From the IMG/VR virus record IMGVR_UViG_3300017773_000077, positions 1 to 31,443 of that record: DNA of 31,443 nt; one strand, 5' to 3'. The DNA is from a virus. The translations under genes and the position numbers were made by a program. The notes beneath the pieces were generated by a model, which was not told where the DNA came from, made no database searches, and was given only the letters and a program-made list of their open reading frames with translations. Shown piece by piece: positions 3,250 through 25,966 of the stretch (the stretch's first letter is position 1; each line of letters opens with the position of its first letter).

Positions 3250-6200
3250 ATGGCAAAGCAGATAAAGATTGGACTGGACAAAGTACCATCTCCAGTCACG
3301 AAGCAGTTTACGCAACTCGTAGATATCGAGGGTACGAAGCTTTTTGATGCCGCAGGCAATCCGCTTGTAACAGAAGAAGAAGCTAGTATACAGGAATTTG
3401 CGAATAGCAATAATGCATTGTCTGTATTTGCCAATAATACGCCCGTACAAGGCGGTAATATTCCTATAGTTGAGCAGTTTCCTGAAACATCTGATGTTAG
3501 TTCTTCTCTTTTAGGTATACCAAGATCAGAAGAGCAACTATCACTTTTCTCTGATGTCGCATCCTATGGACTAGACGAAGATGCTTGGGAAGAGTATACG
3601 TTTGCTGATGCAACAGTTCCATATCAGTGGTATCAAAAAGAGCATCCTATTCACGGAAGAAGATCGAATCCTACTTTTAATGAAGGTTCTACAGAGCAAG
3701 CACTTTTTCTAAAAACATTTCCTTCTCAATATTCTTATCCTCAAGGACCAAGGACGCTAATGGCATCTGATCCATCGGGTGGGTTCAAAAGATATATGAA
3801 CTTCATTGCTTTAGGCAGATGGTTTCATAATGAGTTTACATCAAGAGGATTTCCAGAATTTGCTGATAGATGGTTCTTAGATCCTACTTGTGCTAATGTG
3901 ATTGATAGAAATGACCCAGCAACCATATTGACTGACGGACAACTTGATTTTATAAACGGATCGCAGTTAACCTTTAATCAAAATACAGCATTCTATGATG
4001 TTGATTACGGCAAAGACGACATTCAAGATTCTTTTGATGCTATCGAAAGATGGACATTCTTTTTTCAAAAAATTAAAAATGGTGAAGACTATTATCCTTT
4101 TAACGCATCTGTAGGAAGATTTAAAGAAAACGCTGATCCTGCATATTCAAAAATTGTCTCATTTGCTACAGGTACTGAAGTGTTACCTGGCGGTAGTAGC
4201 ACTAGATTTCAAGTAGCACAATTAGAAAGCAAGAGAGCGTTTAGATATCAGCCTGGTCGTGCCAGTGGATTTACATTTGGCTCTAGAATGACCAATGATC
4301 CTATTTCTTCCGCTACTGTTTGTGAGTGGGGATGTGCAAATGAAACAGACCAATATATGTTTCAGTTGAAAGGATCACAGTTTAATATTGTTAGACGAAG
4401 TACAATTCCTATGCCTCAAAAACTTTTAGAGAGACAAGGACTAACAATTGACGATCAATCAGATCAACCTATCTATGTTAGAGGTTTAGCAAATAGTACT
4501 CCTTTATTTGAAACAATTATTCCTAGATCAAAGTGGAATGGAGATGCCTTACTTGGTGTAGGAGATTCTGGCTACATACTTTCATTCGAAGATGTTACAA
4601 TGTACAAGATCGAGTTCTCTTGGTATGGTGCTATCGGTGCTAAATTCTATGCTTACATACCTTCTGGAAACGGAGACGCTAGATGGGTTCTTATGCATAC
4701 ATTCGTTATCGAAAATGGATTAGGACAACCGATATTACAGAATCCAGACTTTAAGTTTAAATATATCATCTACTCAACAAATACTGCAACTATACAATCT
4801 CCTATCTGCCTATACAAATATGGTAGTAGTTACTATATTGATGGGGGAGATGAAGGAACGCAGAGACTTTCTACAGTGACATCCTTACCTAAAGTTGTCT
4901 CTCAGAGAACTCCTCTTTTAGGACTGCTTCCTAAAGATGATATTTTAAACTCAGATGGATTAGCTGTTAAGAATACTAAAAAATCTTATCCTACAACAAT
5001 ATCTGTTAACGCTAAAAAAGATTGTAGAATTGATTTAGTGGAAGTACTAGGTTCTCGTGATGGAGTGCATTTTAACTATTCTCCTTCATTGCATATGAAC
5101 GGCAGACATCCTAGAACAAGAGACTTGACATTCAAGTACACATTAGGAGATACTATATTACAAATTATACAGCCCGCTACTCCTCAGATAACAGGTACAG
5201 TTTATGTAAACAATAACGAAACTACACTTAACGGAGTAGGCACTCAGTTCCAAACTGACCTTCAGGTGGGTGATGTTTTGTTGATTGGTACAGATACCAC
5301 GACTGAACATAAGATAGATAAGATAAACTCACAAACAGAAATAATATTATCTGATGCATATACTAACTCGGGATCTAGTGACATACTGCAAGCAAACGCA
5401 GTTACCGCTCAAAAAGTTCAAAGACTTAATCCTGAAGATAAGTACGCTAAGATAGTAGCTGATGGTATATATGGCAATTATGTGACAACAAGTGTTTCAA
5501 ACGGTAAGTCTTCACCTGTGTTAAGAAGAAATAGTCCTACACACGATTTTGCACTAAAAGAAAATATTGAAGTTAGGGATTCATTGAAGGTAGACGGTTC
5601 TAAATTAGATCGTACACAGAGTTTTACTGGTAAACTTGTAAACTATCATACAGTCGTAGGATCTGATACTCCTATTACTTCAAATAAATTTAAGATACAC
5701 TGGTTAAATCCTAATCAGTATGAAGGCACTTATGGCAATAGACATTTTGCAGAATTTGGTATAGGCGTTACTCCGCATAAGCCTGTTGAGCCAAATGGAA
5801 GCGATATATTCGATAGACTACACTTCGAAACTTCACCAGGCAACTTTAAAGAGTTCGATAGAGAAGAATATCCTTTCTTAGAATATGTGCATGATAGAAC
5901 ACGATTCGATGAGCGTGAAAATGCAGAGTTATTTGAGTGGCATGGAGCTTACGGCAGAGGTAGATTTGAAGTTGATCCCAGAAATCCTCTTCCGAGATTT
6001 GGTTCTAGCGGAACATCTAATCAGAACAGTAAGCAATCTGGATTCATTTCAAGTTTTCAAGGAAAGGTTGAAGTTCAAGAGTTTGCTGTTAGTACCACTC
6101 TGCTAGAGCCTTTGCCTGCAGACGGCACTAAGTATTCTGCAATGAAGAGACTCGTGTTTACTTCTTCACAAGTTCCAAGTAATAGCGAGATAAAATTTAC

Positions 6201-7047
6201 AGGTACTCTTGCTGATGGAACAATTGATCCTTCTACAGGTATATCTGAGATTGGTGCTTCATTCGCAGGAACAGGATTCTTCTTTAGAAGTGATGTGATT
6301 ATTCCTAGCGGTGGCGGAAACAGATATGTTTATGTTGATGCAAACATAACAAGTAATGCAGATGGAGTTACTCTAGGAACTAATTTTGGTCCTACAGTTG
6401 TTACTGATGCGGGAGATACAAAGAATATTCAAACTAAAGTCGTAACACTGTTTGACGATTTTCAGGCACAGTCTTTTGATGATGACGGTACAGAGTTATT
6501 TCAGAATCATAAATTTTCAGTATCTCAAGCGATTGCGTTTAACGATCAGCCTTTATATCCAGTATTTGCATTGCAAGATAATGCTAGAATAAATAGTATT
6601 GTCATAGAAGAAATATTTGAAGACGGAAGATCGTTAGTTCATAGTCCAACATTTAAGAAAGACGATTCTAACTATAATAGTGCTATAACAATAGACAGTT
6701 CTATTCCTGCAGAAGATCGGTCTCTAACTGGCGGACCTACATCATCACAAGCAACATCATCTTCAGTTTTGACGCCTACATCTTTTAACGAAGAAGATAG
6801 ACAGTCTGGACTTAGATTTGATAAAAGTTGTTTAAATCCTTTGCGAGCAGGAACAACGATATCGTCTTTCTATGCTGAAGGCGGTGACCCAACTAAGATA
6901 GACATGAGTAACCTTTTTGCTCAAGATAGAAAAGGATTATCTCCTGGATTATTAAATAATACAGCGTTATTCTTCATCGCCACAGAACTAGACACAGGTT
7001 CAGCATCTGATACTGTAGAAATTGCTTTAACAATTAAGGAACAATAA
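3250..7047 (+). CDS. Large virion structural protein, paralogous module with upstream gene
   Basis: This is a 1265-residue protein. The ATG at 3250 is preceded by GGGAAGAG ending 9 bases upstream. Residues about 445-542 (IEFSWYGAIGAKFYAYIPSG ... GNGDARWV ... SSYYIDGGDEGTQRL) clearly match residues 601-716 of the upstream protein, so the two share a duplicated module. Residues about 647-712 read as a small beta module (ITGTVYVNNN, NGVGTQFQTDLQVGDVLLIG, then a Lys/Ile-rich strand and TEIILSDAY), a pattern common in phage tail and baseplate proteins. The stop TAA overlaps the next start by one base (TAATG at 7045-7049), suggesting translational coupling. The position corresponds to T4 baseplate wedge and pin genes. 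I infer a baseplate-peripheral or fibre role; the enzymatic or binding activity is unknown. Confidence 0.75.
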   Translation: MAKQIKIGLDKVPSPVTKQFTQLVDIEGTKLFDAAGNPLVTEEEASIQEFANSNNALSVFANNTPVQGGNIPIVEQFPETSDVSSSLLGIPRSEEQLSLFSDVASYGLDEDAWEEYTFADATVPYQWYQKEHPIHGRRSNPTFNEGSTEQALFLKTFPSQYSYPQGPRTLMASDPSGGFKRYMNFIALGRWFHNEFTSRGFPEFADRWFLDPTCANVIDRNDPATILTDGQLDFINGSQLTFNQNTAFYDVDYGKDDIQDSFDAIERWTFFFQKIKNGEDYYPFNASVGRFKENADPAYSKIVSFATGTEVLPGGSSTRFQVAQLESKRAFRYQPGRASGFTFGSRMTNDPISSATVCEWGCANETDQYMFQLKGSQFNIVRRSTIPMPQKLLERQGLTIDDQSDQPIYVRGLANSTPLFETIIPRSKWNGDALLGVGDSGYILSFEDVTMYKIEFSWYGAIGAKFYAYIPSGNGDARWVLMHTFVIENGLGQPILQNPDFKFKYIIYSTNTATIQSPICLYKYGSSYYIDGGDEGTQRLSTVTSLPKVVSQRTPLLGLLPKDDILNSDGLAVKNTKKSYPTTISVNAKKDCRIDLVEVLGSRDGVHFNYSPSLHMNGRHPRTRDLTFKYTLGDTILQIIQPATPQITGTVYVNNNETTLNGVGTQFQTDLQVGDVLLIGTDTTTEHKIDKINSQTEIILSDAYTNSGSSDILQANAVTAQKVQRLNPEDKYAKIVADGIYGNYVTTSVSNGKSSPVLRRNSPTHDFALKENIEVRDSLKVDGSKLDRTQSFTGKLVNYHTVVGSDTPITSNKFKIHWLNPNQYEGTYGNRHFAEFGIGVTPHKPVEPNGSDIFDRLHFETSPGNFKEFDREEYPFLEYVHDRTRFDERENAELFEWHGAYGRGRFEVDPRNPLPRFGSSGTSNQNSKQSGFISSFQGKVEVQEFAVSTTLLEPLPADGTKYSAMKRLVFTSSQVPSNSEIKFTGTLADGTIDPSTGISEIGASFAGTGFFFRSDVIIPSGGGNRYVYVDANITSNADGVTLGTNFGPTVVTDAGDTKNIQTKVVTLFDDFQAQSFDDDGTELFQNHKFSVSQAIAFNDQPLYPVFALQDNARINSIVIEEIFEDGRSLVHSPTFKKDDSNYNSAITIDSSIPAEDRSLTGGPTSSQATSSSVLTPTSFNEEDRQSGLRFDKSCLNPLRAGTTISSFYAEGGDPTKIDMSNLFAQDRKGLSPGLLNNTALFFIATELDTGSASDTVEIALTIKEQ

Positions 7048-10000
7048 TGCCAATTTATAGAGGTCTAAATGTTGCAAAGGCTTTGAGTGATATTGATGAT
7101 TCAAGACAAGCCTTAAAAAACTTAGGACTAAAGAGAGAAGATTTTGATTTGATTGCAGGACTAACTAGTTCTGAAGTAGGCGTTGGTATTAGCGATTTCC
7201 ATAACATGGCAGGCTTAACCAGTGACCAAAAGAAAGAGTTAGAGTCTTTATCAAGTGCCGCTGATGCTACAGAAATAGCATTTCTAAGAATAAATGATAT
7301 CAGTACTCCACTAAAATTCAATCTTAGATTAAATAATAACAAGCTTGCTGGTGGAGCAATCAAATATAATTACCTAGATTTTTCTGCCACTCCAGTTGGA
7401 GGAAATTTTGTTGAAAAATCAGCAGACATTTCTACTTCTAGATTGTCTTCTTGGTCGCCTGTAGGAGATCCTAATCCAGACGACTACATTCTTTATGGCG
7501 GTGATATTAAAATTGTAGGCGATAGACTTTCTTATACAAAACTTTCTACCACAGAAGCTCCTATTGCTAGAACTTTTAGAGCAGAAGTTGCTACTCATGT
7601 AGCTACAGCAAACTTAAACTCGGGCGTAAGCGGAGACGGACTTCAATCGATGTATCTAATGAAGGGTATACCGTTAGAGTGGGAAGGAGTCTTTGAAGAG
7701 ATATCTCTAAAGGCTGCCGTAACTCCTATAGCTGATGCAGAAGGAAATATTCCTATCACATGGAGAATAACAAATCTGCAAGCTCCTGCTGGATCATATA
7801 ACTCTGGAGATGGCTCGAACAACACAGCAAGTATAGGAACAGGAACTTTAGGTAATCCAACAGAATACAAGATAGCTCCTCCTGGATATGCTAAAAGAAA
7901 AATTGAGTTCTTCTATGATCCAGCGAAAGTGCTTAGACTCGAAATGACATCAGCTAACATATCAAAATGGACAAATGTATCTTTGCCCAATCTTAACTGG
8001 CTAAATTTAAGTTTTAACGATTTTCCTGTTATGCCAGAATTTAGATCAGACGGTACAGCCGCTAAACAAGGCTTTGATGGTGGTGCTGGTCTTGCTCCTA
8101 CGTTAGATAGATTGTATATAACAGCAAATGATTTAGGAAGAGGAAACGATGCTCTGTTAGGCGAAGGAGATCGTGAGAACACAGGTAACTCATCACAACA
8201 ATTGAATAGATTGCCTCTTACTTTAAGATATTTGATTGCTAATGGTTGCTTTACTGATAATGTCGATATCGATTTGACTGACTATGAAAATTTGATTTAT
8301 CTAGACCTTTCTTCAAACTTTACAAGAGAGTTAAGAAGACCACAGACGGCAACAAATAGTCCTGCAACATATAATCCTAAAAAGAGAGTTTTCTTTTCAG
8401 TCGAGACTGACACATCGTGGGCGTCATCGGCAGCATCTAATCAAATGTTTATTGCGGGACATGGCTTTACCACTAATGGTACTCCAGTAAGATACGACTA
8501 TCATGCTGATAGTTCAGGAACTATGGCTGAACCCATAAGTTCATTGTCTGCTAACACGACATATTATGTTCGTGTAATCAATAACAATGTTATAGAATTG
8601 TATAATGCTGAAGGAAATGCAACAAGTACAGGCAGTACTACTGGTAGACGATCTATGAGTGGCGAAGGTGGAGATGGACACGGTAAGCTACACTCTTTGA
8701 TTCAGTGGGACACATCTACCAATAAAGCTTACATGGCCAGCACAACGAAAGGTATAGATCAGTATAGAATTTATAATCAGGGTTATAGTAGACTAACTCC
8801 TGGTGTGTATAATAGTAAGAAGTTACATTTGTTCTATGCGAATACTAATGATGACTTGGCAACAAATTCAGAGACGCCTCACTATGCATCTACTGCTAGT
8901 ATAGATGGAACAGTAACCGCGGCTCAAGCTAAAGCTAAGTCTTCAGCAGATATGGCAATTCCTAAAATCGAAGCAGATACAAACTTTAGATATTGGTATA
9001 GTGCGTATAATCCTCACAATATAGTAGATTTTAGCGGTAACACAAGTATCTATCGTTATTATCAATATCGAGGTGATATTGATACGAGATATGAAGAAGC
9101 TGAAACTACATTAGACGGAAAGTTCACAGGATGTACAAGTCTTACACACATTCATGTTTATAATTGTTACGGCACATCTGGCAACTTTGAAACAAGCAAT
9201 TTGTTCCAGAATTTGCCTAATCTGAACTATGTAAACACTCTTGTCTGGGGTAGAGGTGGATTGAAGGGAAGAATCACAGATAATATGTTTAACGGATCAC
9301 CTAAAGTGGGAGACTTCACTGTAGGTGGCGATCAGATGAATCAGTTTACGAATGACACTTTCGGAACTAGTGGCGTTGGCAGTGTTAATACAGGTAAAGC
9401 ACTATATAATGCCAACCCTAATATGAGACACTTCAGAGTGGGGAACAATAGATACGGATCTGGAACTCTTGTGCAAGAAGAGGCAGGAACACACGACTTC
9501 ATTTGGCCAACAAATGACAAAATGAGAACTCTATACTTCTATGCTAATAATCTTAGAGGAACATTCCCAAATGTATTCAACAGTTTTAAATTCTTATCTT
9601 ATCTACAACTAGGATACAATGCTCCTTGGATGAGAGTTAGAATGGCTCAAAGTAAACAAATATATAAAATTGCATACAACCATTTGAGTAATTCTGGCGT
9701 TGACGGTAGCGGTCATGGCGGCAGCAATAAAGATCGATTGACTACGCATGACTACAAAGCAATAGGCTGGCAAGTACAAAGTGAAGCTGACAATATTGCG
9801 GCTGTGGGAAGCGTTTTCGGAGCAGAAGTTGCAGGAAATCCCTCTACAAATCACGCATTCAAGTTACAGCACATACCTGTGGCCACTGGCAATCCAAACA
9901 ACTATATTAGAAATAGATATTATAGAATTATGAAACTTGGTAATACAGATTGGAATGCTTTGACTGAAGGCGGTAATAGTAGTCCGTATCTTGGACAGAA

Positions 10001-10607
10001 GATAGAGTTCAAGGCTTCAAAAGTAGGCAGTATATCATCGAGCGATGCTGGTACTGATCCAGGCGAAATGATGCCATACTCTACTTACGCATCTTTAAGG
10101 TCTTTGGGATTAACGGGTACATTCCCAACATTTAATCAGACGATGACAAATTTAGGGGGCTTATTTATCTACCAGAACAACTTTACTGGTCAGTGTCCTA
10201 AGATAGATGCGCCAAAACTAACAAGATTCTATGCGAATACTAATAAGTTCATTGGCTCTATACCAGATTTCTCAAATTGTGAAAAGCTTAAACAAATTAG
10301 ATTGCATGATAATAAGTTAAGTACATTTACCGCAGGGTTCTTAACAGGTGCCGTAAGGTTAGAATCACTAGATTTAAGAAACAATGTATTAGAAGCAAGT
10401 TGTCTGAGAGAACTTTTAATTGATCTGATTGAAAATTACACGAACAGAGAAAGAAGCGGAGTGACAGTAAACTTAAAAGGACAGAGTGGAGCAAACAGAC
10501 TGCAAGAAAGTTCTAAGTTTGACGGAACTAGTGGGGAAAGTTCTACTGCCGCAAAACTAGACTTTTTAAGACAAGTAGCAGGCTGGTCTATACTTCTAGA
10601 CTCATAA
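7047..10607 (+). CDS. Leucine-rich-repeat tail fibre/adhesin-like protein
   Basis: This is a 1186-residue protein. The ATG overlaps the previous stop and TAAGGA lies 6 bases upstream. The N-terminus (ALSDIDDSRQALKNLGL, about residues 12-28) looks like the docking segment of phage fibre/baseplate proteins. Leucine-rich repeats are visible in blocks: about 295-450 (LPNLNWLNLSFNDF; NLIYLDLSSNF), 690-760 (CTSLTHIHVYN; LPNLNYVNTLVW), 825-870 (MRTLYFYANNLRGTFP) and 1013-1120 (LTRFYANTNKFIGSIPDF; LKQIRLHDNKLS; LESLDLRNNVLE). The last block has the LxGxIP-like form. Between the blocks lie two beta modules, about 467-529 and 952-1000, that recur in other proteins here. The C-terminus (VNLKGQSGAN ... 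FLRQVAGWSIL) resembles the cap that ends many bacterial and phage LRR proteins. LRR domains bind proteins or glycans, so I infer a host-recognition or adhesion role in the virion. The LRR assignment is firm; the location in the virion is inferred from context. Confidence 0.8.
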   Translation: MPIYRGLNVAKALSDIDDSRQALKNLGLKREDFDLIAGLTSSEVGVGISDFHNMAGLTSDQKKELESLSSAADATEIAFLRINDISTPLKFNLRLNNNKLAGGAIKYNYLDFSATPVGGNFVEKSADISTSRLSSWSPVGDPNPDDYILYGGDIKIVGDRLSYTKLSTTEAPIARTFRAEVATHVATANLNSGVSGDGLQSMYLMKGIPLEWEGVFEEISLKAAVTPIADAEGNIPITWRITNLQAPAGSYNSGDGSNNTASIGTGTLGNPTEYKIAPPGYAKRKIEFFYDPAKVLRLEMTSANISKWTNVSLPNLNWLNLSFNDFPVMPEFRSDGTAAKQGFDGGAGLAPTLDRLYITANDLGRGNDALLGEGDRENTGNSSQQLNRLPLTLRYLIANGCFTDNVDIDLTDYENLIYLDLSSNFTRELRRPQTATNSPATYNPKKRVFFSVETDTSWASSAASNQMFIAGHGFTTNGTPVRYDYHADSSGTMAEPISSLSANTTYYVRVINNNVIELYNAEGNATSTGSTTGRRSMSGEGGDGHGKLHSLIQWDTSTNKAYMASTTKGIDQYRIYNQGYSRLTPGVYNSKKLHLFYANTNDDLATNSETPHYASTASIDGTVTAAQAKAKSSADMAIPKIEADTNFRYWYSAYNPHNIVDFSGNTSIYRYYQYRGDIDTRYEEAETTLDGKFTGCTSLTHIHVYNCYGTSGNFETSNLFQNLPNLNYVNTLVWGRGGLKGRITDNMFNGSPKVGDFTVGGDQMNQFTNDTFGTSGVGSVNTGKALYNANPNMRHFRVGNNRYGSGTLVQEEAGTHDFIWPTNDKMRTLYFYANNLRGTFPNVFNSFKFLSYLQLGYNAPWMRVRMAQSKQIYKIAYNHLSNSGVDGSGHGGSNKDRLTTHDYKAIGWQVQSEADNIAAVGSVFGAEVAGNPSTNHAFKLQHIPVATGNPNNYIRNRYYRIMKLGNTDWNALTEGGNSSPYLGQKIEFKASKVGSISSSDAGTDPGEMMPYSTYASLRSLGLTGTFPTFNQTMTNLGGLFIYQNNFTGQCPKIDAPKLTRFYANTNKFIGSIPDFSNCEKLKQIRLHDNKLSTFTAGFLTGAVRLESLDLRNNVLEASCLRELLIDLIENYTNRERSGVTVNLKGQSGANRLQESSKFDGTSGESSTAAKLDFLRQVAGWSILLDS

Positions 10608-10619
10608 CAGGAAAGAGAA

Positions 10620-11783
10620 ATGGCACAAGGTTTTGTAAGAACTAATAATTTAGCGGAGAGTTTAACTCCATCGTCTGATAGAAATATCCTTGATAACTTG
10701 GGTGGTGTAAACATCACTCAAGATGTCCTATTGTTTGATGGTAATGCCAACTTTGAATCTAAGTTGATAAACGACTCTTCTACAAGTCGAGCAGATTTTA
10801 GTTTGTTTGATGACGCCACAGAATCCAACTTCAAGACAGTTAAAACCGATCTAATCAACAATAAACGAGCATTCTCTAACGGAACAAAATTATCCTTTGA
10901 TAATGGAAATACATTTCCTTTCATAGTCGTAGACAGCAATGGACTAGACGAGTTTCGTGTTGTAGCAACTACGGCCACAATTACTTATAATGCTGGAGAT
11001 TACTCGGGACCTTTTAGTGGTTTAGATATTACAAATCTAACGATGACTCGATCAGATACCATTACAGTTCAAAATATTGAAAATATGAGCGTGGATAGAT
11101 TGCCCACTGTAGATGTCCAATCAGATTCTGAAGAAATCGGCACTGGTGGAGCTGATTCTAGCGATGATACTGGAGATATCGATATCGCTACAGAAGAAGG
11201 TGCAGGTATATACGATAACTATGGTACATATGATCAGATAAGCTATGTGGCAGGAGCAATAGGTAGATTAGAAGCTAAAAAGCAAAGAACTGTATTGACA
11301 GATAGACTTTCTTTCTTTGAAGAAAGAGTTAGGTTTAAAGGTAATGTCAGAATTACTAACGATGCTCAAACCACAATATTTCAAAATAGTGCAAATGCTC
11401 CAGGTCTGTTTGTATATAATACAGCATCTAACTCAGAAATTAGGGCATTTTCCGGCTCTGATAATCCTTGGGCAGAAAATAGTAGTATTGCTATAGATGA
11501 TGGATCAGGAACATTAGCAGGATTACAGACATCATCTCTCAAATCACAAGTATCTAATTTAGTATTTTCTCCTGATAATGGCGGCACTGCTGGCACAGCA
11601 AATGATCGAGGAGATAGACCCGCATTTGTGAAAAAGAATACTAGCGGTGCTGTAGTTGGTTCAGTAACACATATAGATGGAAGTGCTTCAGCCTCTAGTC
11701 AACTTACTGTTGCGGGATTCACACATAAGATTCCAATAACCGTAAATGGCGAACAGTTTTTTATGCTCGCAACGAAAGTTTAA
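10620..11783 (+). CDS. Putative tail fibre/baseplate-associated structural protein
   Basis: This is a 387-residue protein starting at an ATG with AGGAAAGAG 2 to 10 bases upstream. The N-terminus (NLAESLTPSSDRNILDNLGG) resembles the N-terminal docking segments of the LRR protein and the minus-strand protein nearby. Residues about 160-200 are rich in Asp, Glu, Ser and Gly (for example SDSEEIGTGGADSSDDTGDI) and may be a flexible or cation-binding linker. The last residues (GFTHKIPITVNGEQFFMLAT) look like a compact C-terminal element that I associate with small structural proteins of marine T4-like phages. It ends 6 bases before the stop of a convergent minus-strand gene, with no terminator hairpin between them. 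Function is inferred from position and sequence style only. Confidence 0.65.
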   Translation: MAQGFVRTNNLAESLTPSSDRNILDNLGGVNITQDVLLFDGNANFESKLINDSSTSRADFSLFDDATESNFKTVKTDLINNKRAFSNGTKLSFDNGNTFPFIVVDSNGLDEFRVVATTATITYNAGDYSGPFSGLDITNLTMTRSDTITVQNIENMSVDRLPTVDVQSDSEEIGTGGADSSDDTGDIDIATEEGAGIYDNYGTYDQISYVAGAIGRLEAKKQRTVLTDRLSFFEERVRFKGNVRITNDAQTTIFQNSANAPGLFVYNTASNSEIRAFSGSDNPWAENSSIAIDDGSGTLAGLQTSSLKSQVSNLVFSPDNGGTAGTANDRGDRPAFVKKNTSGAVVGSVTHIDGSASASSQLTVAGFTHKIPITVNGEQFFMLATKV

Positions 11784-11789
11784 GTTATC

Positions 11790-14700
11790 TTACTTAGGCT
11801 CAACGTGCCTACTATTTACTAGAACTCTGTAAGTCTCTTCAGATCCGCCTGAAGGAGTATAACATATATCGAATCGACCATCGGGCTCTTGTGCTTGAGC
11901 CTCTGATTCACTACCTCTATTTGCGGCATCGCTTGTCTGCTCTGTAAATTCGACATCTTCTAGAGACAGTGCTTCTCCTAGTCTGGTGAATGTTATATCA
12001 GGTAGACTACCATTACCAGTTACATTTGACCAAGATCCACCGCTATAGTGTTCTACTGAGAAGTTTCCAGTACTGCCGTCTACAAAATCTACCTTATATA
12101 TAATTCCATCAGAGAATGTTGACAATACAGAGCCTGTATTCGCTCCTTCAGCTTTTATTAAATCTCCCACTTTAACTACGGGTTGCGAAGGAGAAAACCC
12201 AAATAAAATATTAGATCCTAGAGTGGCAGTAAATTTAAAGTCTGATTTCGTATTGTAGCTTAGTTTTTTGAATGATAATTCTTTAACTTCTAGATTTGGA
12301 AAACCATCAGTCGTTAACAATCCTTCAGTGTAGCTACCAAAAGGTGGAGCAGTGTTCAAAGGAATAACGCAATACTCTCTATTCTTTCTGAGTTCGGTAA
12401 CTGATCCAGAATAACTACCCGAAGGAACGATTACAAGAGTTGCGCCTGGATTAATTGTCTGAGCAAGATTTACTTGAGCACCACTTTCATTTTTCAATCT
12501 AATCATTTTCTCGCCACTACCGCCAGTAAACTTTTGGACTTTAGTAGCAGTTCCGCTAAGACTACTTTGATTATCTTGAGGTATAGCCGGATTAAAATAT
12601 ACTCTATCGTCATCAGCTATTCTTGTGTAATTAGTATCTGTCAGTTCAATCTCGTCTTGACTATTTGAAGCTTGTGTTTTTACCTCTACTCCAAATACTC
12701 CTGTACACTCGTAAACACCCGTTATATCATTCAAGCCTCTACTCGAATATATTGAAGCAATGCCATGAGTTGCAGATAATGTTGCATGATTGACAAGAGT
12801 ATTTCTATTCGCAGTTAAACTTGGATGGTTACTCACTTGAAGTTTTAATTGAGTTGCGGCTGTAGGTGCAACAGAGGCATCACTGTCATTAAGATATGTA
12901 ATTTTCTCAACCACATAAGGTCTATCGTTTACACAATGGCCTGTTGCTGATAGGGATATTGCTCCGTAGTAATAAACTAAGTCACCTTCTACTACATCTA
13001 ATATTGATCTTTTGAGTGTATCGTTTGTTCCGTTGACGACTCTAATTGTCAACTCTGTGTCAGACACTCGGGATGCTTTATATGTTCCTACTAGTCCTTC
13101 ATTTTTAAGATGAATAAACTCTTTTACTGCGTTTAAAGGTATGTTGGCGCCACCAACAGATCCAATATCTGATGATATATAAGCCTTTGTACTATCAATT
13201 TTCTCTAAGAGTTGAAACGAAAATACTTTATTATTAGCGTTTGTCCAGCCAGCATTCGCACCATCGTAAGCTGTTATGAATGTAAGCACATCTCCTTCTT
13301 GGACATTAGTGAATGGCGAATTCGCATTCGAAGGATCTCTTTGTAAAGTGCCAGCCGTATTTGTCAGCTTAGCCACTCTTATAGGGTTATTGATCTGACC
13401 TGCACCACTATCAAAATCGGGAAAAATATCTCCAGTGGCTTGTTTTGCATCATACAACATCATAGATATAGTATCATTTACAACTAGTTTTGCTGTAGAA
13501 TCTTGTTTTGTCACTTTAGCATGATTGTTCACAAAGTATGGGAAAGTATATCTTCCAAAATCATCACTAGATCCGTCAGTTGTATAGAAATATGAATATG
13601 ACAGCGGTCCACTGCCACTGCCAGTATCGTGTCTGAATATTTTACTTTCTAGCAATTGCTCTTGACTATCGTTTGGTTCGTACCACCAAACACTGTAGCG
13701 TATCTTTCTTCTTTTACCATTTGCTTGCAAAGGAGTTATAAAAATCGTACCTGTTCCTAGATCATATTCTGATCTATCGTATTCGAATTCGAGAATATCA
13801 GATCCAGTGGCGCCTGCATCCGCATCAGTTTTAGCGTAGTATCTGTAATCTCCCATTACAGCATCATATTTACGATAGACCTCTGTAACATATAGTTCTA
13901 TTCCATTTATTTCTACTTCATGATTCTCACAAACTCTTCTATAATCATCTTCTTCATGTAACTCAATTAGAGTTACATTATCGACAGTCGAATAACTACA
14001 CTGCTTTAACGATTGGAATGCAAATGCATTTACGCCTTTTAAGAATTTCCAGTTACCGTCATCGTTAACATCTTCTTCTATTGAGAAGAATCCATTTATT
14101 AAAAGTTTAAACGAGAAAAATCCACTTTGATATCCTTCCCAAACAATACCGCCTTGCGTGTTAGTAAAATCTGGGTGAAGTGTTCCTACTAACTCAAGTT
14201 GACCGTCAGACCACAAATCTACACCCGTAACTAAATCTAGTAAGTTAGCGGTATCATTCTTCTTCGTATAGAACTTGTTTACTGGTAAATCAGTTGAATT
14301 AGGATCTAAATTTTCAGCAACAGATGCTCCTTCGCCACTAGGTAATGTTTGGTTTCTCAGATATACCCTTACAGCTATCGCACCTGAGAATGCTCCAGTA
14401 GGAGTATGTGTTACATGGTCTCCTATCGACCAATGTTCTAACGCAAAAGCATCTGCAACAGTTGTTTGTGTAGCACCATTGTAGATAAACTGTTGTCCTA
14501 CATAAGGTATACCCTCTACTCCTATATCTTTCCACTCTGAAGCATTAGAAGAGACTGTTCCTAGTTTTAGAATTGTGTACATTTTATTCGCAACAAAATT
14601 ACCCATTGATTTTGCGGGTATTACTTTGTTGTTACCTGATGCAGTAGCAGTTGCGGTTGGAGTAAATCTAGTACCTATGGGTATAACTAATTGTAATGTA

Positions 14701-15644
14701 CTAGTATCACCAAAATCAGCAGTTAATGTCTTTTGTGTTGATAAAGCCGCATCTGTGTATAACTCAATTCTATCAGTATCAGTAGTAACTACTTTTACAA
14801 AGAAAATATCACCGTCAGTAAATCCACTACCTTCGGCGCCACTACCACTTTGATAGACCACTTTGTTGCCAGTTACAAATGAATGTCCAACAATTGTGAT
14901 ATAACCAGTAGCTCCAGCACTTACATTTGCGTTAACAAATGATTCAGTAGAAGTGCTTAGTGTTGAATTAACTGCTGACCAGTCGTAAGTTCCGTCTGCC
15001 TCTACTATAACACAAGGAGTGCCGCTAGTTATAGATGTCGTTTCTAGAGTTGTATTAGCTACAGGAGATTGATCTCTGAGACTTCCCGTGGTGTTACCGT
15101 ATAGTGAGTTACAAGTTATTTGTAAGTTATCAAAATTCATGTCCGAAGCACCAGCAATAACTCTGTATGTGTTGCCTTGACGACTTTGAGTTGCGTTTAT
15201 TTCGGCTTCTGGATAGTTTACTGTATTCTGATTAAGTCTATCTTCTGATATGATAGAAGCACTAGGACCTGAGCCTCCGTTTATCCAAGGCGGATCACCC
15301 AATGCTACTTTGAAATTGTTTATATGATCTTGAATTGTTACTCTAGGCTCGACATCTACTGATGTGGTATCGCTTCCCACTAGAGTGCCTTCTATAGTAG
15401 TTCCAGCAAGTTGAGTAAATTCTTGAGCGTTTCCGCTTACAGTTAGTCTGTCACCTAAAGGACCGTCAGCTATCCCCACCAATGGTAAAATATCATCAGA
15501 TGTGAATCTTAAAGCATTTCCGTTTGCATCTACTTGTGTAGATATATTATCCAATATATTGTCTAGTGCGTTCTTGGGATCAGGTATATCTGATAAGTTT
15601 TTATCTGCTCTGGCACCAAATTTTATATACTTTGTTCTTGACAT
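11790..15644 (-). CDS. Large modular fibre-like virion protein, only minus-strand gene in window
   Basis: This 1284-residue protein is read leftward from the ATG whose complement is at 15642-15644, with GGAAC about 6 bases upstream. The N-terminus (GARADKNLSDIPDPKNALDN, residues 10-29) is the docking-type segment also seen in two neighbouring + strand proteins. Residues about 250-305 (IVGHSFVTGNKVVYQSGSG ... DRIELYTDAALS) and 349-400 (MYTILKLGTVSSNASEWKDI ... YVGQQF) are beta modules that recur in the LRR protein, gene 18 and gene 15. Several weaker copies of a VGD/EGD-plus-YxV pattern follow (for example VKVGDLIKAEG ... DGIIYKVDFV near 1150-1200). The length, the absence of membrane segments and the repeat-like beta modules fit a tail fibre or baseplate appendage. 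It is convergent with the gene on its left and divergent from the one on its right, and it has its own late promoter octamer. Receptor specificity is unknown. Confidence 0.72.
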   Translation of the reverse strand: MSRTKYIKFGARADKNLSDIPDPKNALDNILDNISTQVDANGNALRFTSDDILPLVGIADGPLGDRLTVSGNAQEFTQLAGTTIEGTLVGSDTTSVDVEPRVTIQDHINNFKVALGDPPWINGGSGPSASIISEDRLNQNTVNYPEAEINATQSRQGNTYRVIAGASDMNFDNLQITCNSLYGNTTGSLRDQSPVANTTLETTSITSGTPCVIVEADGTYDWSAVNSTLSTSTESFVNANVSAGATGYITIVGHSFVTGNKVVYQSGSGAEGSGFTDGDIFFVKVVTTDTDRIELYTDAALSTQKTLTADFGDTSTLQLVIPIGTRFTPTATATASGNNKVIPAKSMGNFVANKMYTILKLGTVSSNASEWKDIGVEGIPYVGQQFIYNGATQTTVADAFALEHWSIGDHVTHTPTGAFSGAIAVRVYLRNQTLPSGEGASVAENLDPNSTDLPVNKFYTKKNDTANLLDLVTGVDLWSDGQLELVGTLHPDFTNTQGGIVWEGYQSGFFSFKLLINGFFSIEEDVNDDGNWKFLKGVNAFAFQSLKQCSYSTVDNVTLIELHEEDDYRRVCENHEVEINGIELYVTEVYRKYDAVMGDYRYYAKTDADAGATGSDILEFEYDRSEYDLGTGTIFITPLQANGKRRKIRYSVWWYEPNDSQEQLLESKIFRHDTGSGSGPLSYSYFYTTDGSSDDFGRYTFPYFVNNHAKVTKQDSTAKLVVNDTISMMLYDAKQATGDIFPDFDSGAGQINNPIRVAKLTNTAGTLQRDPSNANSPFTNVQEGDVLTFITAYDGANAGWTNANNKVFSFQLLEKIDSTKAYISSDIGSVGGANIPLNAVKEFIHLKNEGLVGTYKASRVSDTELTIRVVNGTNDTLKRSILDVVEGDLVYYYGAISLSATGHCVNDRPYVVEKITYLNDSDASVAPTAATQLKLQVSNHPSLTANRNTLVNHATLSATHGIASIYSSRGLNDITGVYECTGVFGVEVKTQASNSQDEIELTDTNYTRIADDDRVYFNPAIPQDNQSSLSGTATKVQKFTGGSGEKMIRLKNESGAQVNLAQTINPGATLVIVPSGSYSGSVTELRKNREYCVIPLNTAPPFGSYTEGLLTTDGFPNLEVKELSFKKLSYNTKSDFKFTATLGSNILFGFSPSQPVVKVGDLIKAEGANTGSVLSTFSDGIIYKVDFVDGSTGNFSVEHYSGGSWSNVTGNGSLPDITFTRLGEALSLEDVEFTEQTSDAANRGSESEAQAQEPDGRFDICYTPSGGSEETYRVLVNSRHVEPK

Positions 15645-18986: not shown

Positions 18987-20549
18987 GTGGCTAAAAACTA
19001 TTATTTTGAGAACTTCGATAACTCAATGGAGCAATCGCTCATTGAGGACTTGGTTATCGAGTCCATAAAAATCTATGGAGTTGATGCTTGGTATATACCT
19101 AGAACTCTTACAGGTAAAGATGATATTCTCAACGAAGATGATATATCAACATTTAAAAGTGCATTCATGGCAGAAATGTATGTTAAGAGTGTTGATGGAT
19201 TTGAGGGAGAAGGCGACTTCTTATCTAAGTTTGGTTTAGAGATTCGTGATTCTATTACGATGACAATTGCAAGAAGAACTTATGAGTCTGAAGTAGCATT
19301 GTATAATGATACAGTTAGACCTCTAGAAGGAGATTTGATATATCTACCCTTAAACAATAAGATATTTGAGATCCAACATGTGGAACATGAATCTATCTTT
19401 TATCAGATGGGTTCACTTCAGATGTATGATCTCAAAGCAGAACTATTTGAGTATAGCGGAGAAAGATTCTCTACTGGTCAATCATTCATCGATAACTTAT
19501 ATAAAGGTGTTAATACATTTAAAAGCTTGGTGGTTACTGATTACACATATATCGTTGATGCTGATAGCGTTCAGAACTTTCGTGTTAAGCTTTCTAGTTC
19601 CGATAGAGATGTGTTATCAACTAAACCATTAGAACTAGAAACTAATCAAGAGTACATATTTGATTTATCACACTCTTCGCTAACTGGTCATCTTTTCAAC
19701 TTTTATCCTGATGGAGACGGTGCTACAGAGTCTTTCTCGACAGCAGTAAGAACTGGAACAGCAGGTCAAGCAGGAGCAAACTTAAAACTTACTCCTACGG
19801 CTGTAGGTGATCACGACTATAGAAGTTTCAACGGAGCTACGAGAAGAAACTTGTTTGCATATAGTGAAGACCTAGTTGCTGGATTAGCGGCAGGCGTTTG
19901 GCAAGTTAAAGCATATAATCCTGGAGACGGTGCAGATTATCCTACAGATTATCCTACAGTGCAGTCGATAAGTCAAGCCGGTGTCGGTCTAAATGGCACA
20001 GCGACTCGAATTACATTCCCTGCTTCATCTAATACTGATGGAACAATATATCAACGAATCAATCATGATGCCGCTCTAACGCCTAGTCGTTATAAAGCAT
20101 CTATTTGGGTAAGAAATGCTTCGCCTGGTTTGAAAGCATATGTAGCAGTTAATCCAGTAAGGGCTTGGGAGACGGAGTCATTTCTTTTCGATATCGATAT
20201 ACCCGTAAGTAGTGACTGGCAAAGAATTAGTATTCAATTAACTTTCCCTGGTCAAGCTAAAACACCTGTGTTAGCAATTCAGAATACTACTGGTGCCGCG
20301 GGAGCATCAGTAGAAGTTTGGGGAGCCCAATTCGAAGAACGCACCCTTGCGACTATTGGTGATCCTGCTTCAGTATATCAAAAAGTTGAACAGAACTATA
20401 ATGCTAACACAGCGAATGCTATCGGAAGTGTTATGAGAGTCGTTCAACCAGTTTCTGATGCTCTAGCAGATAATGATGCAATAGAATCTTTTGGCGATAA
20501 TCTAATAGATTTCACTAACGCTAACCCATTTGGAGATATGGACTTCTAA
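18987..20549 (+). CDS. 14: Neck protein gp14 with large inserted binding modules
   Basis: This is the T4 gp14 neck protein, the partner of gp13 in head completion. The start is GTG at 18987 with TAGGAT 6 bases upstream. Residues 1-185 are the conserved part (NSMEQSLIEDLVIESIKIYG, AWYIPRTL, FLSKFGLEIRD, LEGDLIYLPLNNKIFEI), and the C-terminal AIESFGDNLIDFTNANPFGD is the usual gp14 end. The protein is 520 residues against about 256 in T4. The extra length lies between: about 186-285 resembles the cupredoxin-like module of marine phages (YIFDLSHSSLTGHLFNF; RTGTAGQAGANLKLTP) with its metal-binding Cys/His segment lost. About 286-460 is a carbohydrate-binding-type jelly roll (RRNLFAYSEDL ... GTIYQRINH ... 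YKASIWVRN ... VEVWGAQFEE). The stop overlaps the gene 15 start (TAATG). Confidence 0.92.
   Translation: MAKNYYFENFDNSMEQSLIEDLVIESIKIYGVDAWYIPRTLTGKDDILNEDDISTFKSAFMAEMYVKSVDGFEGEGDFLSKFGLEIRDSITMTIARRTYESEVALYNDTVRPLEGDLIYLPLNNKIFEIQHVEHESIFYQMGSLQMYDLKAELFEYSGERFSTGQSFIDNLYKGVNTFKSLVVTDYTYIVDADSVQNFRVKLSSSDRDVLSTKPLELETNQEYIFDLSHSSLTGHLFNFYPDGDGATESFSTAVRTGTAGQAGANLKLTPTAVGDHDYRSFNGATRRNLFAYSEDLVAGLAAGVWQVKAYNPGDGADYPTDYPTVQSISQAGVGLNGTATRITFPASSNTDGTIYQRINHDAALTPSRYKASIWVRNASPGLKAYVAVNPVRAWETESFLFDIDIPVSSDWQRISIQLTFPGQAKTPVLAIQNTTGAAGASVEVWGAQFEERTLATIGDPASVYQKVEQNYNANTANAIGSVMRVVQPVSDALADNDAIESFGDNLIDFTNANPFGDMDF
19539..19841 (+). other. Degenerate cupredoxin-like module inside gene 14
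   Basis: Residues about 185-285 of gp14. The pattern LETNQEYIFDLSHSSLTGH, then NFYPDGDG, STAVRTGTAGQAGANLKLTP and a terminal HDYRSFNG follows the order of a beta module common in marine phage structural proteins. Those copies normally end in a YYCxxHxxM-like metal site, which is absent here. Assignment is by pattern memory only. Confidence 0.5.
19842..20366 (+). other. Carbohydrate-binding-type jelly-roll module inside gene 14
   Basis: Residues about 286-460 of gp14. The opening RRNLFAYSEDL, central TATRITFP, GTIYQRINH, YKASIWVRN and closing VEVWGAQFEERTLAT match the well-known phage tail module that runs from RNLLTYSE to VWGAQLEEG. This family is usually on tail or fibre proteins and is thought to bind glycans; here it sits in a neck protein. 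Ligand unknown. Confidence 0.7.
19933..19959 (+). repeat. 12-bp tandem duplication in gene 14 insert
   Basis: CAGATTATCCTA occurs twice in direct succession and is followed by CAG. It encodes the duplicated residues DYPTDYPT within the jelly-roll module, in frame. Confidence 0.85.
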
Positions 20550-21529
20550 TGTTTGGTAATCATTTTTATCACGAGTCTACGAGAAGATATGTTGCTGTAT
20601 TCGGCACACTCTTTAATGACATCGAAATAACAAGAAAGGATAACTCTACTCCTGCGGCTTCTATACAGAAGATAAAGGTGCCTATTAACTATGCTCCTAT
20701 GCAGAAGATTTTAGCTAAACTAGAGCAAGACCCTAATCTTAGATCACCTAGTGCTGTCACATTGCCTAGAATGTCGTTTGAAGTAACGGGAATGACTTAT
20801 AGTGCTGAAAGAAAGTTAACAAGTTTAACGAAACAAGTAAAGGGATCACCTTTATCAGATGGAAGAGTCAATACAATGTATACTCCTGCACCATACGATA
20901 TCGAGTTTCAGTTAAACATTATGACAAAATATAATGAAGATGGAATGAAAATAGTTGAACAGATACTACCTTTCTTCAAACCAGATTGTACTGTAAGTGT
21001 ACAAATGGTAGACGGACTAGGATATGTCGATATTCCTGTCGTATTGAACAGCGTATCTCAAGAAGATACTTATGAAGCAGATTTTCAGACAAGAAGAGCG
21101 TTGATTTGGACACTTAACTTCACGATGAAAGCATACTTCTTTGCTCCCACGCAAACTAAGAGACAGATTAAGTTTGTCGATGTTGATTTGTATCCTCAGT
21201 TGACAGTAGCTGATAATGGTGAGCAAATCGAAATAATTCCTGCTATTCCTACTGCAATGGCAAGCTTGGTAGCAGGAACAACTTACAGAATTTATGATCT
21301 AGGAACGGGATCGTCTACAGAGAATCAATCGAGATGGAATCTCTACCTCACAGGCGATGCAAACACAGGAAACACATATAGAGTTGGAGATCAATTTAAT
21401 GCTCCTGCAAATCCAGCTACAAATGCACCCGCTGGAGCAACAGCGACATTGAAGAGTCTAGACACGATAGACGAGAACGATAGCTGGAAAGCAATGACGA
21501 TAATATCAGACGGAGATGGAACAATATAA
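20549..21529 (+). CDS. 15: Tail sheath stabiliser / tail completion protein gp15
   Basis: This 326-residue protein is the T4 gp15 family, which caps the tail tube and sheath and connects the tail to the neck. Conserved stretches are MFGNHFYHESTRRYVAVFGT, NDIEITRKDN, KVPINYAPMQKILAKLEQDP and the block from LPRMSFEVTGMTYSAERKL. T4 gp15 is about 272 residues. The extra length is near the C-terminus: residues about 238-303 form a module (LVAGTTYRIYDLGTGSS ... SRWNLY ... YRVGDQF) that also occurs in the LRR protein and the minus-strand fibre-like protein. A short acidic tail (DTIDENDSWKAMTIISDGDG) follows and is probably the original gp15 end. The ATG overlaps the gene 14 stop. Confidence 0.92.
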   Translation: MFGNHFYHESTRRYVAVFGTLFNDIEITRKDNSTPAASIQKIKVPINYAPMQKILAKLEQDPNLRSPSAVTLPRMSFEVTGMTYSAERKLTSLTKQVKGSPLSDGRVNTMYTPAPYDIEFQLNIMTKYNEDGMKIVEQILPFFKPDCTVSVQMVDGLGYVDIPVVLNSVSQEDTYEADFQTRRALIWTLNFTMKAYFFAPTQTKRQIKFVDVDLYPQLTVADNGEQIEIIPAIPTAMASLVAGTTYRIYDLGTGSSTENQSRWNLYLTGDANTGNTYRVGDQFNAPANPATNAPAGATATLKSLDTIDENDSWKAMTIISDGDGTI

Positions 21530-23629: not shown

Positions 23630-25966
23630 ATGGCTTTTCAAACAAGTCCAGGCATTAATGTCAGCGAAATCGACCTTACGAATGCTACTCCGGCAGTTGG
23701 AACTACTGAGGGTGCAATTGCAGGTGTATTTCGATGGGGTCCAGTAGGAGAAAGAGTACTTATCTCCTCTGAGCAACAACTAGTGGATCGATTCGGTGCA
23801 CCAGTTAAAATTTATAGCGGTTCGAACTATGAAAATACATGGTCTAACGTAGAAACTTTCTACACCGCGGCAAACTTCTTAGGATATAGCGATGCATTGT
23901 ATGTAACTCGTGTCGCAACATCCGGTCAAACTACAGCTTCTGAGTCAGATGAAGGATTCCAAGCTAAGTATCCAGGTCTTTTAGGTAACTCTTTGTCAGT
24001 ATCTTTCTGTTCTGGTGATGATCCAGGTGGTAACGATGTAGTTGGATTTTCACCAAGTAGTCTACAAACACCAGGCGTAATTACTGTTTCAGACAGTTCA
24101 AGAAATCAAGCATCTATTACTGGTTTGAGTGATGCATCAAGAGATGCCTTAACAAAAGGTACAAAAATAATTCTTAAAGATACTAATGATAATGTTCTAC
24201 AGAAAATGACATTATCAGCCAGCTCTCCTACCACAGAAGGTGGTGCTGTTGCTACAGATGCTACAGTTAAAGATTTCTTATCTGATACTCTACCTCCAGA
24301 TGCTTCAACAAGCGGTGTTGTTCTTCAGTCTGAAAGTGCTGATAGAGACGGTGATGCGAGTGGTGGCGAAAGTGTAGTAGATTTGGGAATAAATGGTAGT
24401 ATCATTAATATTCCGTCTCACGGTTTTACTAAGGGTCAAGCAGTTCAGTATAGTGCTGAAGCACAAGGTGTTGTTGGCGGTCTAGTAGACGGCAAAACAT
24501 ACTTTGTAATTCCTGTAACAGCTTCATCTGGTAAAGGATCAGACGGTAGTGAATTTACTACTGGTGGTTCTGTTACTGGAACTACTACAGGTGCTATTAA
24601 ACTAGCGGCAACACTTGAAGATGCCATGGCTCATACAGACGCATCGCCTAAGAATATTCAACTTACAGCGAGAGCAGGAACAACTTCGGTAGCTTCTAAG
24701 TTAAAGCCATTCACTTCTTTGAACGTAGTTGTTGATTTTGAAGAGAGATTCACAGGTATTATCTCTGATATTGACAGTAACGACTATGATGTTGAGTGGG
24801 GAGATGCTGATCTTTTTGATGCGGCACCTACTGCAAGTAGTATTCACATCGTAGTTAGAGACGAAGATGGCGATATTACTGGCACAGCAGGCTCAATTCT
24901 AGAAGTTTATGAGAATGTTTCAGAAAATCCTAGTTCCACTAAAACAGACGGCACCACAAATTATGCTAGAACCTTGTTAGAACAACAATCTAACTGGATT
25001 AAGATTTCAGATGCTAATATTGGTGGGACTGGATTTACAACAACTAGATCAGGTAACCCTTTAACCGGTGGTGCTGACGGTAACGATGAAGTTGCGGTTA
25101 CTATTGGTGAACTAGCGACTGGTTATGATCTATATGTAGATCCTGCTGATGTAGATATCTCTTTTGTACTTCAAGGTAAGGCTAAAAGTGATCACGTTTT
25201 AGCTAACTACATCATCGATAATATAGCTGAAGTTCGTAGAGATTGTGTAGCGTTTATTTCTCCAGCACTTGAAGATACTACAGTAGCCAATATAGTAGGT
25301 TTTGCTAACTCTGTTACTTCAAGTAGCTATGCTGTTGTAGATTCTGGCTACAAGTATCAGTATGACAAGTATAACGATGTGTACGCATACGTTCCTTTAA
25401 ATGGCGACATTGCAGGGCTTTGTGCTAGAACAGACGATCTAAGAGATCCTTGGTTCTCACCTGCAGGCTATCAGAGAGGTAATGTTAAGAATGTTGTTAA
25501 ATTACTAGTTAATCCTACCAAAGCAGAAAGAGATTTGCTCTACAAGAAGGGTGTTAACCCAGTAATTACACAACCAGGTCAGGGTACTGTATTGTTTGGA
25601 GATAAGACATTTACTGGTGTTACTAGTGCATTTGATCGTATCAATGTTCGTAGACTGTTTATTGTTCTTGAGAAAACAATCAGCCAATCTGCTAAATCGA
25701 CTCTATTCGAATTTAACGATGAGTTCACTAGAGCCCAGTTTGTAAACTTGGTTGAACCATTCTTGAGAGATGTGCAGGGTAGACGAGGCATCTATGACTT
25801 TAAAGTAATTTGTGACGAATCGAACAACGGTCAAAGCGTTATCGATGCTAACCAATTTGTTGGCGATATCTTTATCAAGCCAGCTCGCTCTATCAACTTC
25901 ATCCAGTTGAACTTTGTAGCTGTTAGATCAGGCGTAGAGTTCTCAGAGATCGTTGGTCAGGCTTAA
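23630..25966 (+). CDS. 18: Tail sheath protein gp18
   Basis: This is the contractile tail sheath subunit of the T4 gp18 family, 778 residues against 659 in T4. The N-terminus SPGINVSEIDLTNATPAVGT, followed by GAIAGVFRWGPVGE, is conserved. So is the C-terminal third (PTKAERDLLYKKGVNPV, FGDKT, RLFIVLEKTISQSAKSTLFE, DFKVICDESNN). Residues about 130-460 are the variable surface region, and within it about 258-335 form a module (HGFTKGQAVQYSAEAQG ... GGLVDGKTYFVIPV ... GAIKLAATLEDAM) related to modules in the LRR and minus-strand fibre-like proteins. A strong AAGGAG lies 9 bases before the ATG and a TATAAATA late promoter is at 23571-23578, fitting a highly expressed virion protein. Confidence 0.97.
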   Translation: MAFQTSPGINVSEIDLTNATPAVGTTEGAIAGVFRWGPVGERVLISSEQQLVDRFGAPVKIYSGSNYENTWSNVETFYTAANFLGYSDALYVTRVATSGQTTASESDEGFQAKYPGLLGNSLSVSFCSGDDPGGNDVVGFSPSSLQTPGVITVSDSSRNQASITGLSDASRDALTKGTKIILKDTNDNVLQKMTLSASSPTTEGGAVATDATVKDFLSDTLPPDASTSGVVLQSESADRDGDASGGESVVDLGINGSIINIPSHGFTKGQAVQYSAEAQGVVGGLVDGKTYFVIPVTASSGKGSDGSEFTTGGSVTGTTTGAIKLAATLEDAMAHTDASPKNIQLTARAGTTSVASKLKPFTSLNVVVDFEERFTGIISDIDSNDYDVEWGDADLFDAAPTASSIHIVVRDEDGDITGTAGSILEVYENVSENPSSTKTDGTTNYARTLLEQQSNWIKISDANIGGTGFTTTRSGNPLTGGADGNDEVAVTIGELATGYDLYVDPADVDISFVLQGKAKSDHVLANYIIDNIAEVRRDCVAFISPALEDTTVANIVGFANSVTSSSYAVVDSGYKYQYDKYNDVYAYVPLNGDIAGLCARTDDLRDPWFSPAGYQRGNVKNVVKLLVNPTKAERDLLYKKGVNPVITQPGQGTVLFGDKTFTGVTSAFDRINVRRLFIVLEKTISQSAKSTLFEFNDEFTRAQFVNLVEPFLRDVQGRRGIYDFKVICDESNNGQSVIDANQFVGDIFIKPARSINFIQLNFVAVRSGVEFSEIVGQA

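Follow-up and report, generated by a model that had tools for sequence, protein, structure and literature searches.

A small protein module recurs in three virion proteins encoded by the 31,443-base virus record that we analysed over its whole length (the window), and by profile comparison its copies in gp15, in a leucine-rich-repeat (LRR) protein and in a fibre-like protein on the minus strand are one family. Judged from the sequences, the module has many unrelated virion hosts in marine and other aquatic phages, occurs in tandem and in split copies, and is markedly expanded in the clade of the window. We think it probable that tailed phages have in this module an accessory domain that is promiscuous, is grafted into loops and, exposed on the surface, makes multivalent weak contacts; this applies to the statement as a whole, and our confidence in an adhesive function by itself is clearly lower. 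Promiscuous phage domains are known mainly as Ig-like folds, usually in fibres, tubes and sheaths. The module described here is far smaller, is absent from the family catalogues that we searched, and sits within core components of the tail machine (sheath stabiliser, sheath and baseplate wedge).

Three copies in the window

The window holds a T4-like structural cluster, whose genes we numbered by T4 order and family matches. The gp14-like head closure protein matched PHROG 460, and gp15 is followed by a terminase, sheath, tube and portal region whose DNA aligns to that of named T4-like phages. Among the matches listed, the top named records belonged to the marine Kyanoviridae (SynMITS9220M01 and Pelagibacter phage HTVC008M are examples) and showed 64 to 70% DNA identity across at most 29% of a 6.2-kb query.

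The first host is gp15, the tail sheath stabiliser or tail terminator (326 aa; 20549..21529, +), which carries the module at residues 230-303 (21236..21457, +), in an extension C-terminal to its conserved core. The second is the LRR protein (1186 aa; 7047..10607, +), with PF13855 at residues 1075-1115 (E 4.5e-8); its copy at residues 948-1008 (9888..10070, +) adjoins the C-terminal leucine-rich repeats on their upstream side. The third is the minus-strand protein (1284 aa; 11790..15644, -), whose orthologues in 7 related contigs are 923-1214 aa long and which carries the module at residues 342-400 (14445..14621, -). All three copies are members of profiles A1 and A2, and their E-values there (gp15, 1.7e-29 with A1 and 5.2e-17 with A2; LRR protein, 6.8e-15 with A2; minus-strand protein, 2.5e-18 with A2) are not independent tests.

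The initial annotation had placed a common pattern, Y-x-I-x-x-LG, then W, then G-x-x-(F/I), in somewhat shorter stretches of these proteins, namely, gp15 residues 238-303 (21260-21457, +), LRR protein residues 952-1000 (9900-10046, +) and minus-strand protein residues 349-400 (14445-14600, -), and all three are in frame at those positions. In the 20 open reading frames (ORFs) of the window, Y.I..LG occurred 3 times against 0.126 expected, a count of 3 or more arose in 0 of 2000 shuffles, and the matches were exactly these three stretches; with W and G..[FI] added, 3 were observed against 0.005 expected. The host identities given in the initial annotation held for gp15 (PF16724 and the T4 gp15 fold) and for the LRR protein (PF13855), while "fibre-like" stays a label for the minus-strand protein, to which Pfam, PHROGs and NCBIfam assigned no family and which had no match among 50,697 phage records.

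Pairwise BLOSUM62 alignment scores for gp15 with the minus-strand protein and for the LRR protein with the minus-strand protein lay above all 2000 shuffles. The gp15-LRR alignment on its own was not significant (p 0.54; 2000 shuffles), which is what a chance or convergent short motif would give. A hidden Markov model (HMM) built from 4 gp15 copies only reached the minus-strand orthologue in contig L008 (E 1.2e-6); it also gave a weaker match to the L033 sheath protein (domain E 0.0036; whole-protein E 0.021). An iterated HMM from which the LRR and minus-strand proteins of the window were left out found the minus-strand copy at E 2e-15 and the LRR copy at only 0.03. When host-specific profiles were compared by hhalign, all three pairs matched significantly (gp15-minus, E 4e-5; gp15-LRR, 3.4e-5; minus-LRR, 1.9e-6), although these profiles are shallow (4-11 sequences; probabilities 70-90%). 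The LRR copy is secure in hhalign once the LRR orthologues are included, and the clade HMM gave it E 1.8e-11 with the copy itself in the seed. These results support the proposal that the same small domain sits in all three hosts. The profile matches refute a chance motif, the motif statistics, matching structure models and clean insertions described below also oppose it, and we regard that explanation as negligible.

Hosts in related contigs and other phages

The profile search of related phages suggested in the initial annotation found copies far beyond the three window proteins. Of the 20 records scanned with profile A1, 10 (G000-G009) had copies, at 48 places and with 1 to 8 per record. Neither A1 (E<=0.01) nor A2 (E<=1) matched contig G010 or any of the nine named records scanned (SynMITS9220M01, HTVC008M, Mosig, Bellamy, AG-345-L05, Melnitz-1, P-SSM2, DLP_6 and CM8), and thus T4-like phages do not carry the module as a rule. 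An iterated profile run over 1,384 ORFs from the 10 contigs and the window gave 59 domain matches at E<1e-3, a number that counts the G003 copies even though G002 has identical ones, and counts a single LRR frame of G001 as two overlapping pieces (L136/L137). Among reversed and shuffled decoys, the best match was at 0.0076 in the first round and at 0.097 in the second, with a single match in each, and the last two rounds had none below 0.1. Each of the five longest contigs with the module has 8-9 copies, with G001 counted at 8 rather than 9 after the L136/L137 overlap.

Ten orthologue families host the module in these related uncultured T4-like contigs. It was present by HMM in 8 of 11 gp15 orthologues (the gp15 of L034/G009 was scored "none" in the orthologue table, yet it aligned as a module in the iterated profile), in 1 of 10 orthologues of the sheath protein gp18 (PF04984; only G008, which is L033) and in 1 of 5 orthologues of gp53 (PF11246; only G004). 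Two wedge-type proteins carry it, that of PHROG 17744 in 3 of 5 cases with 1 or 3 copies and that of PHROG 438 in 5 of 5, and so do a PHROG 358 protein in all six contigs where this was found and a protein of about 1000 aa in 6 of 6. Orthologues of the LRR protein bear the module, weakly in G002/G003 (E 0.018), as do 7 of 8 orthologues of the minus-strand protein. Of the eight orthologues of the protein downstream of the LRR protein, three have two copies, that of G007 has four matches and the other four (those of the window, G005, G002 and G003) lack the module. Copies within one genome share no more than 48% in the window, G004 and G005; we therefore rejected recent duplication within the genome, and no recent spread was caught.

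A wider family lies outside this clade. With a 54-aa copy taken from one of the related contigs, tblastn reached podovirus ctwe8250 (E 9e-4), where the match is a 190-aa "b-glycanase"; this is a Gp80-type protein (PF23140) in which the insert lies beyond the PF23140 match. The ctwe8250 copy led in turn to cyanophage S-TIM54, which has a named host strain and a single copy in a virion structural protein, and to podovirus ctXG6705 and 27 IMG/VR loci. The wider form is sharper, at about 44 aa, with the consensus SFVxGxxYxIxSxGxTxFTSIGAANNNVGTxFTATGxGSGTGTA. Its hosts include a lambda-L-like minor tail protein (PF05100), an Mtd_N protein (PF18454), a J-like protein (PF13550, PHROG 31), a wedge-type protein (PHROG 438) and head-type proteins (PHROGs 613 and 3287). 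The clade copies aligned to the wider form by hhalign at E 1.8e-5 (gp15), 1.6e-6 (minus-strand protein) and 9.7e-8 (LRR protein), and the L161 copy reads as a bridge between the two forms. Eighteen wider-form records have 1-3 copies each, fewer than the clade of the window; all were picked for having a match, and 18 of 18 is therefore no frequency. The structurally unrelated virion hosts of the module in different phages include PF16724, PF04984, PF11246, PF23140, PF05100, PF18454 and PF13550.

Apart from the 54-aa copy, single copies were poor tblastn queries. Copies of 55, 74 and 57 aa found nothing in 50,697 phage records, and an 86-aa copy gave two matches there at E 6 and 8, one of them to a Leptolyngbya phage and one a Pseudomonas match, of which the Leptolyngbya phage match was unsupported, with 0 profile matches. 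The search of bacterial genomes, made with the clade-specific pattern only, gave one short match in a metagenome-assembled genome that the profile did not support (0 in G017).

In the window proteins, the A1 and A4 members and the host proteins, the module falls outside every Pfam, PHROG and NCBIfam family, and no Ig-type Pfam family (Ig, fn3 or Big) matched it among the A1 and A4 members scanned. Matches to BRCA2 OB2 (E 0.006), LPD16, CBM_5_12, fibronectin and FmlD were judged to be chance because they fell short of the curated cut-off or had an E close to 1, occurred in 1-2 of 16 members and were short and local; glucokinase and DUF350 matches on L218 were dismissed likewise. A search of the literature, apart from subscription papers and preprints, returned no description of the module and no match to its motif letters. 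A profile for the module would aid annotation of many unnamed structural proteins of aquatic phages.

Insertion sites and probable module exchange

PF16724 covers residues 5-223 of the window gp15 (E 2.2e-69), and residues 2-203 of its AlphaFold2 model aligned to T4 gp15 (4huh) with Z 15.9 and rmsd 3.8 over 172 residues. The core is thus common to T4 gp15 (4huh and 4hud; PF16724), but the matched T4 chains stop at residue 206-207, whereas the module lies beyond the core. In the model, strands 225-232 and 314-321 flank the module, whose pLDDT is 87-92 over residues 231-300. The module is predicted to be a small alpha/beta fold (strand-helix-strand-strand) that in gp15 is inserted between the two C-terminal strands. 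The closest module-less gp15 forms have short tails that finish, like the filled form, with a DDDW stretch; the module therefore takes the place of a loop that conserved strands flank on both sides.

We inspected the C-terminal tail at 80 IMG/VR gp15 loci by eye and counted the module in 32 (including L026, whose contig ends within it), another module in 24 and neither in 23, with one tail cut off (L030). The alternative module reads F.VGETISANNSGATGVVV... and is unrelated to the one studied here; because it occupies the same C-terminal tail, the gp15 tail looks like a module acceptor site. Examples of the VGETISANNSGATGVVV... module are found in other marine gp15 lineages, at L044:2793-3776 and at L047:595-1578 and its relatives. 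The gp15 gene of Pelagibacter phage Mosig (L084:17384-18982) is 1599 bases long versus 816 in HTVC008M; the Mosig genome has no match to profile A1 or A2, and this extension is of another kind.

On a tree of gp15 cores, for which 47 of 81 rows (80 loci plus the window) were kept after truncated and identical cores were dropped, the module shows by eye about one gain and one loss (L033/L035/L037). The computed figure of 5 changes is too many, since it takes L030 as "none" when that contig stops short of the tail, and the string rule also gave "none" for L054, whose tail is similar to the other module; the reading by eye sets these two rows aside. Such steady inheritance could be equally compatible with a specialised structural role.

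The main rival to the accessory weak-contact reading is of that kind: the module would be a structural spacer or cement that strengthens subunit contacts at tail joints, with no partner outside the virion. Its presence in gp15, gp18, gp53 and wedge-type proteins is consistent with such a role, as are its occurrence in gp15 (at 32 of 80 loci, counted by eye) and its history there of roughly a single gain and a single loss, and stabilisation is among the possible roles of extra sheath domains in PMC9230969. However, gp15, gp18, gp53 and a wedge-type protein have module-less orthologues in close relatives, and assembly as such would therefore seem not to depend on it; it also occurs in fibre-like and LRR proteins. 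We consider a cement role somewhat unlikely.

Filled and empty orthologues place the insertions in other hosts. The gp53 of G004 has about 80 extra residues between stretches that are conserved in four shorter orthologues. The 387-aa window protein downstream of the LRR protein (10620..11783, +) is an empty orthologue by alignment, with both module sites vacant where those of G004, G006 and G001 are filled. Presence and absence with conserved flanks, as read from these alignments, is clean insertion in gp53 and in the 387-aa protein.

In the minus-strand protein, G002 and G003 (which are identical) have two tandem copies, with E 6.1e-11 and 9.1e-16, and in G005 the first copy is weaker (E 0.03), uninterrupted and likewise in tandem. 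The corresponding first copy in the window is degenerate and split into residues 202-228 (14961..15041, -) and 321-339 (14628..14684, -) by a 92-residue insertion (229-320; 14685..14960, -), an assignment that rests on alignment to orthologues, including those of G005 and G002, and not on a profile score of its own. The insertion holds a GHSF module at residues 244-316 (14697-14915, -; GH[GS]F profile E 6.6e-29, as a seed member), and thus one module seems to have landed inside another. This second shared module, GH[GS]F...Y, is common to the minus-strand protein, gp18 (residues 254-337; 24389..24640, +) and the LRR protein (residues 463-536; 8433..8654, +), the latter two also being seed members, and its profile matches further proteins in related contigs.

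A neutral or near-selfish passenger, a coding cassette tolerated in loops and spread by recombination without a function of its own, would also be expected to be patchy among orthologues, to enter many unrelated hosts and to be found one inside another. Against this explanation, the core residues Y, I, G, W and G are retained in highly diverged copies, and same-site copies are kept in all 5 contigs in one wedge-type protein and in all 6 in the protein of about 1000 aa. We judge the passenger explanation to be quite unlikely and retain the weak-contact reading. Empty and filled orthologue pairs, together with one module split by another, make loop tolerance, module exchange and weak adhesion directly testable.

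Predicted fold and possible role

Different predicted folds in the copies would have spoken against a shared domain, but the gp15 and minus-strand models, made from separate alignments with AlphaFold2, agree in the order of their elements: a short strand, a one-turn helix, a strand at YxIxxLG, a helix at W, a strand at VGxxF and a further strand. The minus-strand model (mb8aed869b9d2) was made without gp15 copies and has a mean pLDDT of 71, with 66-88 over the module.

Foldseek against the PDB gave nothing significant for this fold (best E 2.1, probability 0.08), and searching the PDB by sequence gave no convincing match to the module. Against BFVD it returned 11 phage proteins with probability 0.82-1.00 and E 3.5e-3 to 0.26, including tip attachment protein J. 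In a second-look structural alignment, FeoA domains and domains of manganese/iron regulators, which we take to be FeoA-like, made up 6 of the 9 matches listed and ranked first. The best of these had Z 5.0 and rmsd 2.4 over 57 aligned residues at 2% identity, where the guide value of the tool is 8. The FeoA and FeoA-like SH3 domains of MntR and IdeR may resemble the predicted module in the arrangement of elements (Z 3.1-5.0), and a FeoA/SH3-like fold is possible on the models. It would be a further step to make the module a true member of the FeoA/SH3 superfamily, derived from a bacterial FeoA or metal-regulator domain. The second-look matches point that way, but the Foldseek result, a Z below the guide value, the 2% identity and the lack of any sequence link in Pfam or the PDB point away from it, and the module hosts are neither transporters nor regulators. 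We hold this origin to be unlikely.

We therefore describe the favoured accessory-domain reading in terms of a mechanism. The module, of about 45-75 aa with a core of 44 positions, would fold independently, and its ends may lie close enough together for it to be grafted into a surface loop with the host fold undisturbed. It would then stand on the outside of the neck, sheath, baseplate and fibres, where it may bind a cell-surface or extracellular polymer multivalently and with low affinity, or bridge neighbouring virion subunits. Recombination between phages would spread it, and it may be retained because many weak contacts aid adsorption or virion stability. More tentatively, we can conceive, short of thinking it probable, that tiny interchangeable coat modules colonise the loops of almost any virion protein and one another, and that in the marine T4-like clade of the window one of them has multiplied to about nine copies, spread between neck and fibres; the tail exterior would then be studded with a repeated, virion-wide surface domain that acts as a weak adhesive in a multivalent way.

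The nearest parallel is the Ig-like domains of phages, which Fraser et al. (2006, J Mol Biol 359:496) are said to have described as optional on structural proteins of unrelated phages, horizontally exchanged and dispensable. The module is likewise optional on structural proteins of unrelated phages, but at about 45-75 aa and with a predicted strand-helix-strand-strand arrangement it has no Ig sandwich, and unlike the Ig-like domains it forms loop insertions inside gp15, gp53 and the sheath protein. Weak carbohydrate contact has been proposed for phage Ig-like domains, as quoted in PMC9230969. The same study describes extra domains of sheath proteins as positioned away from the tube and proposes adhesion or stabilisation for them. 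Like the module, these are additions to a conserved tail core; they are, however, mostly Ig-like and described there in sheath proteins, whereas the module has ten host families in one clade. Domain shuffling, as outlined in PMC10684548, leaves fragments common to unrelated phage proteins and is linked to receptor-binding proteins, baseplate proteins and endolysins; the shuffled domains treated there are known ECOD domains, while the module is in no library that we searched.

Other proteins of the window show further signs of modular construction. gp14 (18987-20549, +) ranges from 222 to 533 aa among relatives, with one contig-end fragment left out, and residues 165-269 of the window protein match PHROG 701 and a tail-fibre PHROG; gp14 seems to hold another accessory module. 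Residues 648-705 of the protein at 3250-7047 (+) match PHROGs 1980 (tail fibre), 17834 and 12714 and are probably yet another shared phage module. The large structural proteins at 1-3246 and 3250-7047 (+) match each other distantly, at E about 2e-18, and look as if they were paralogues.
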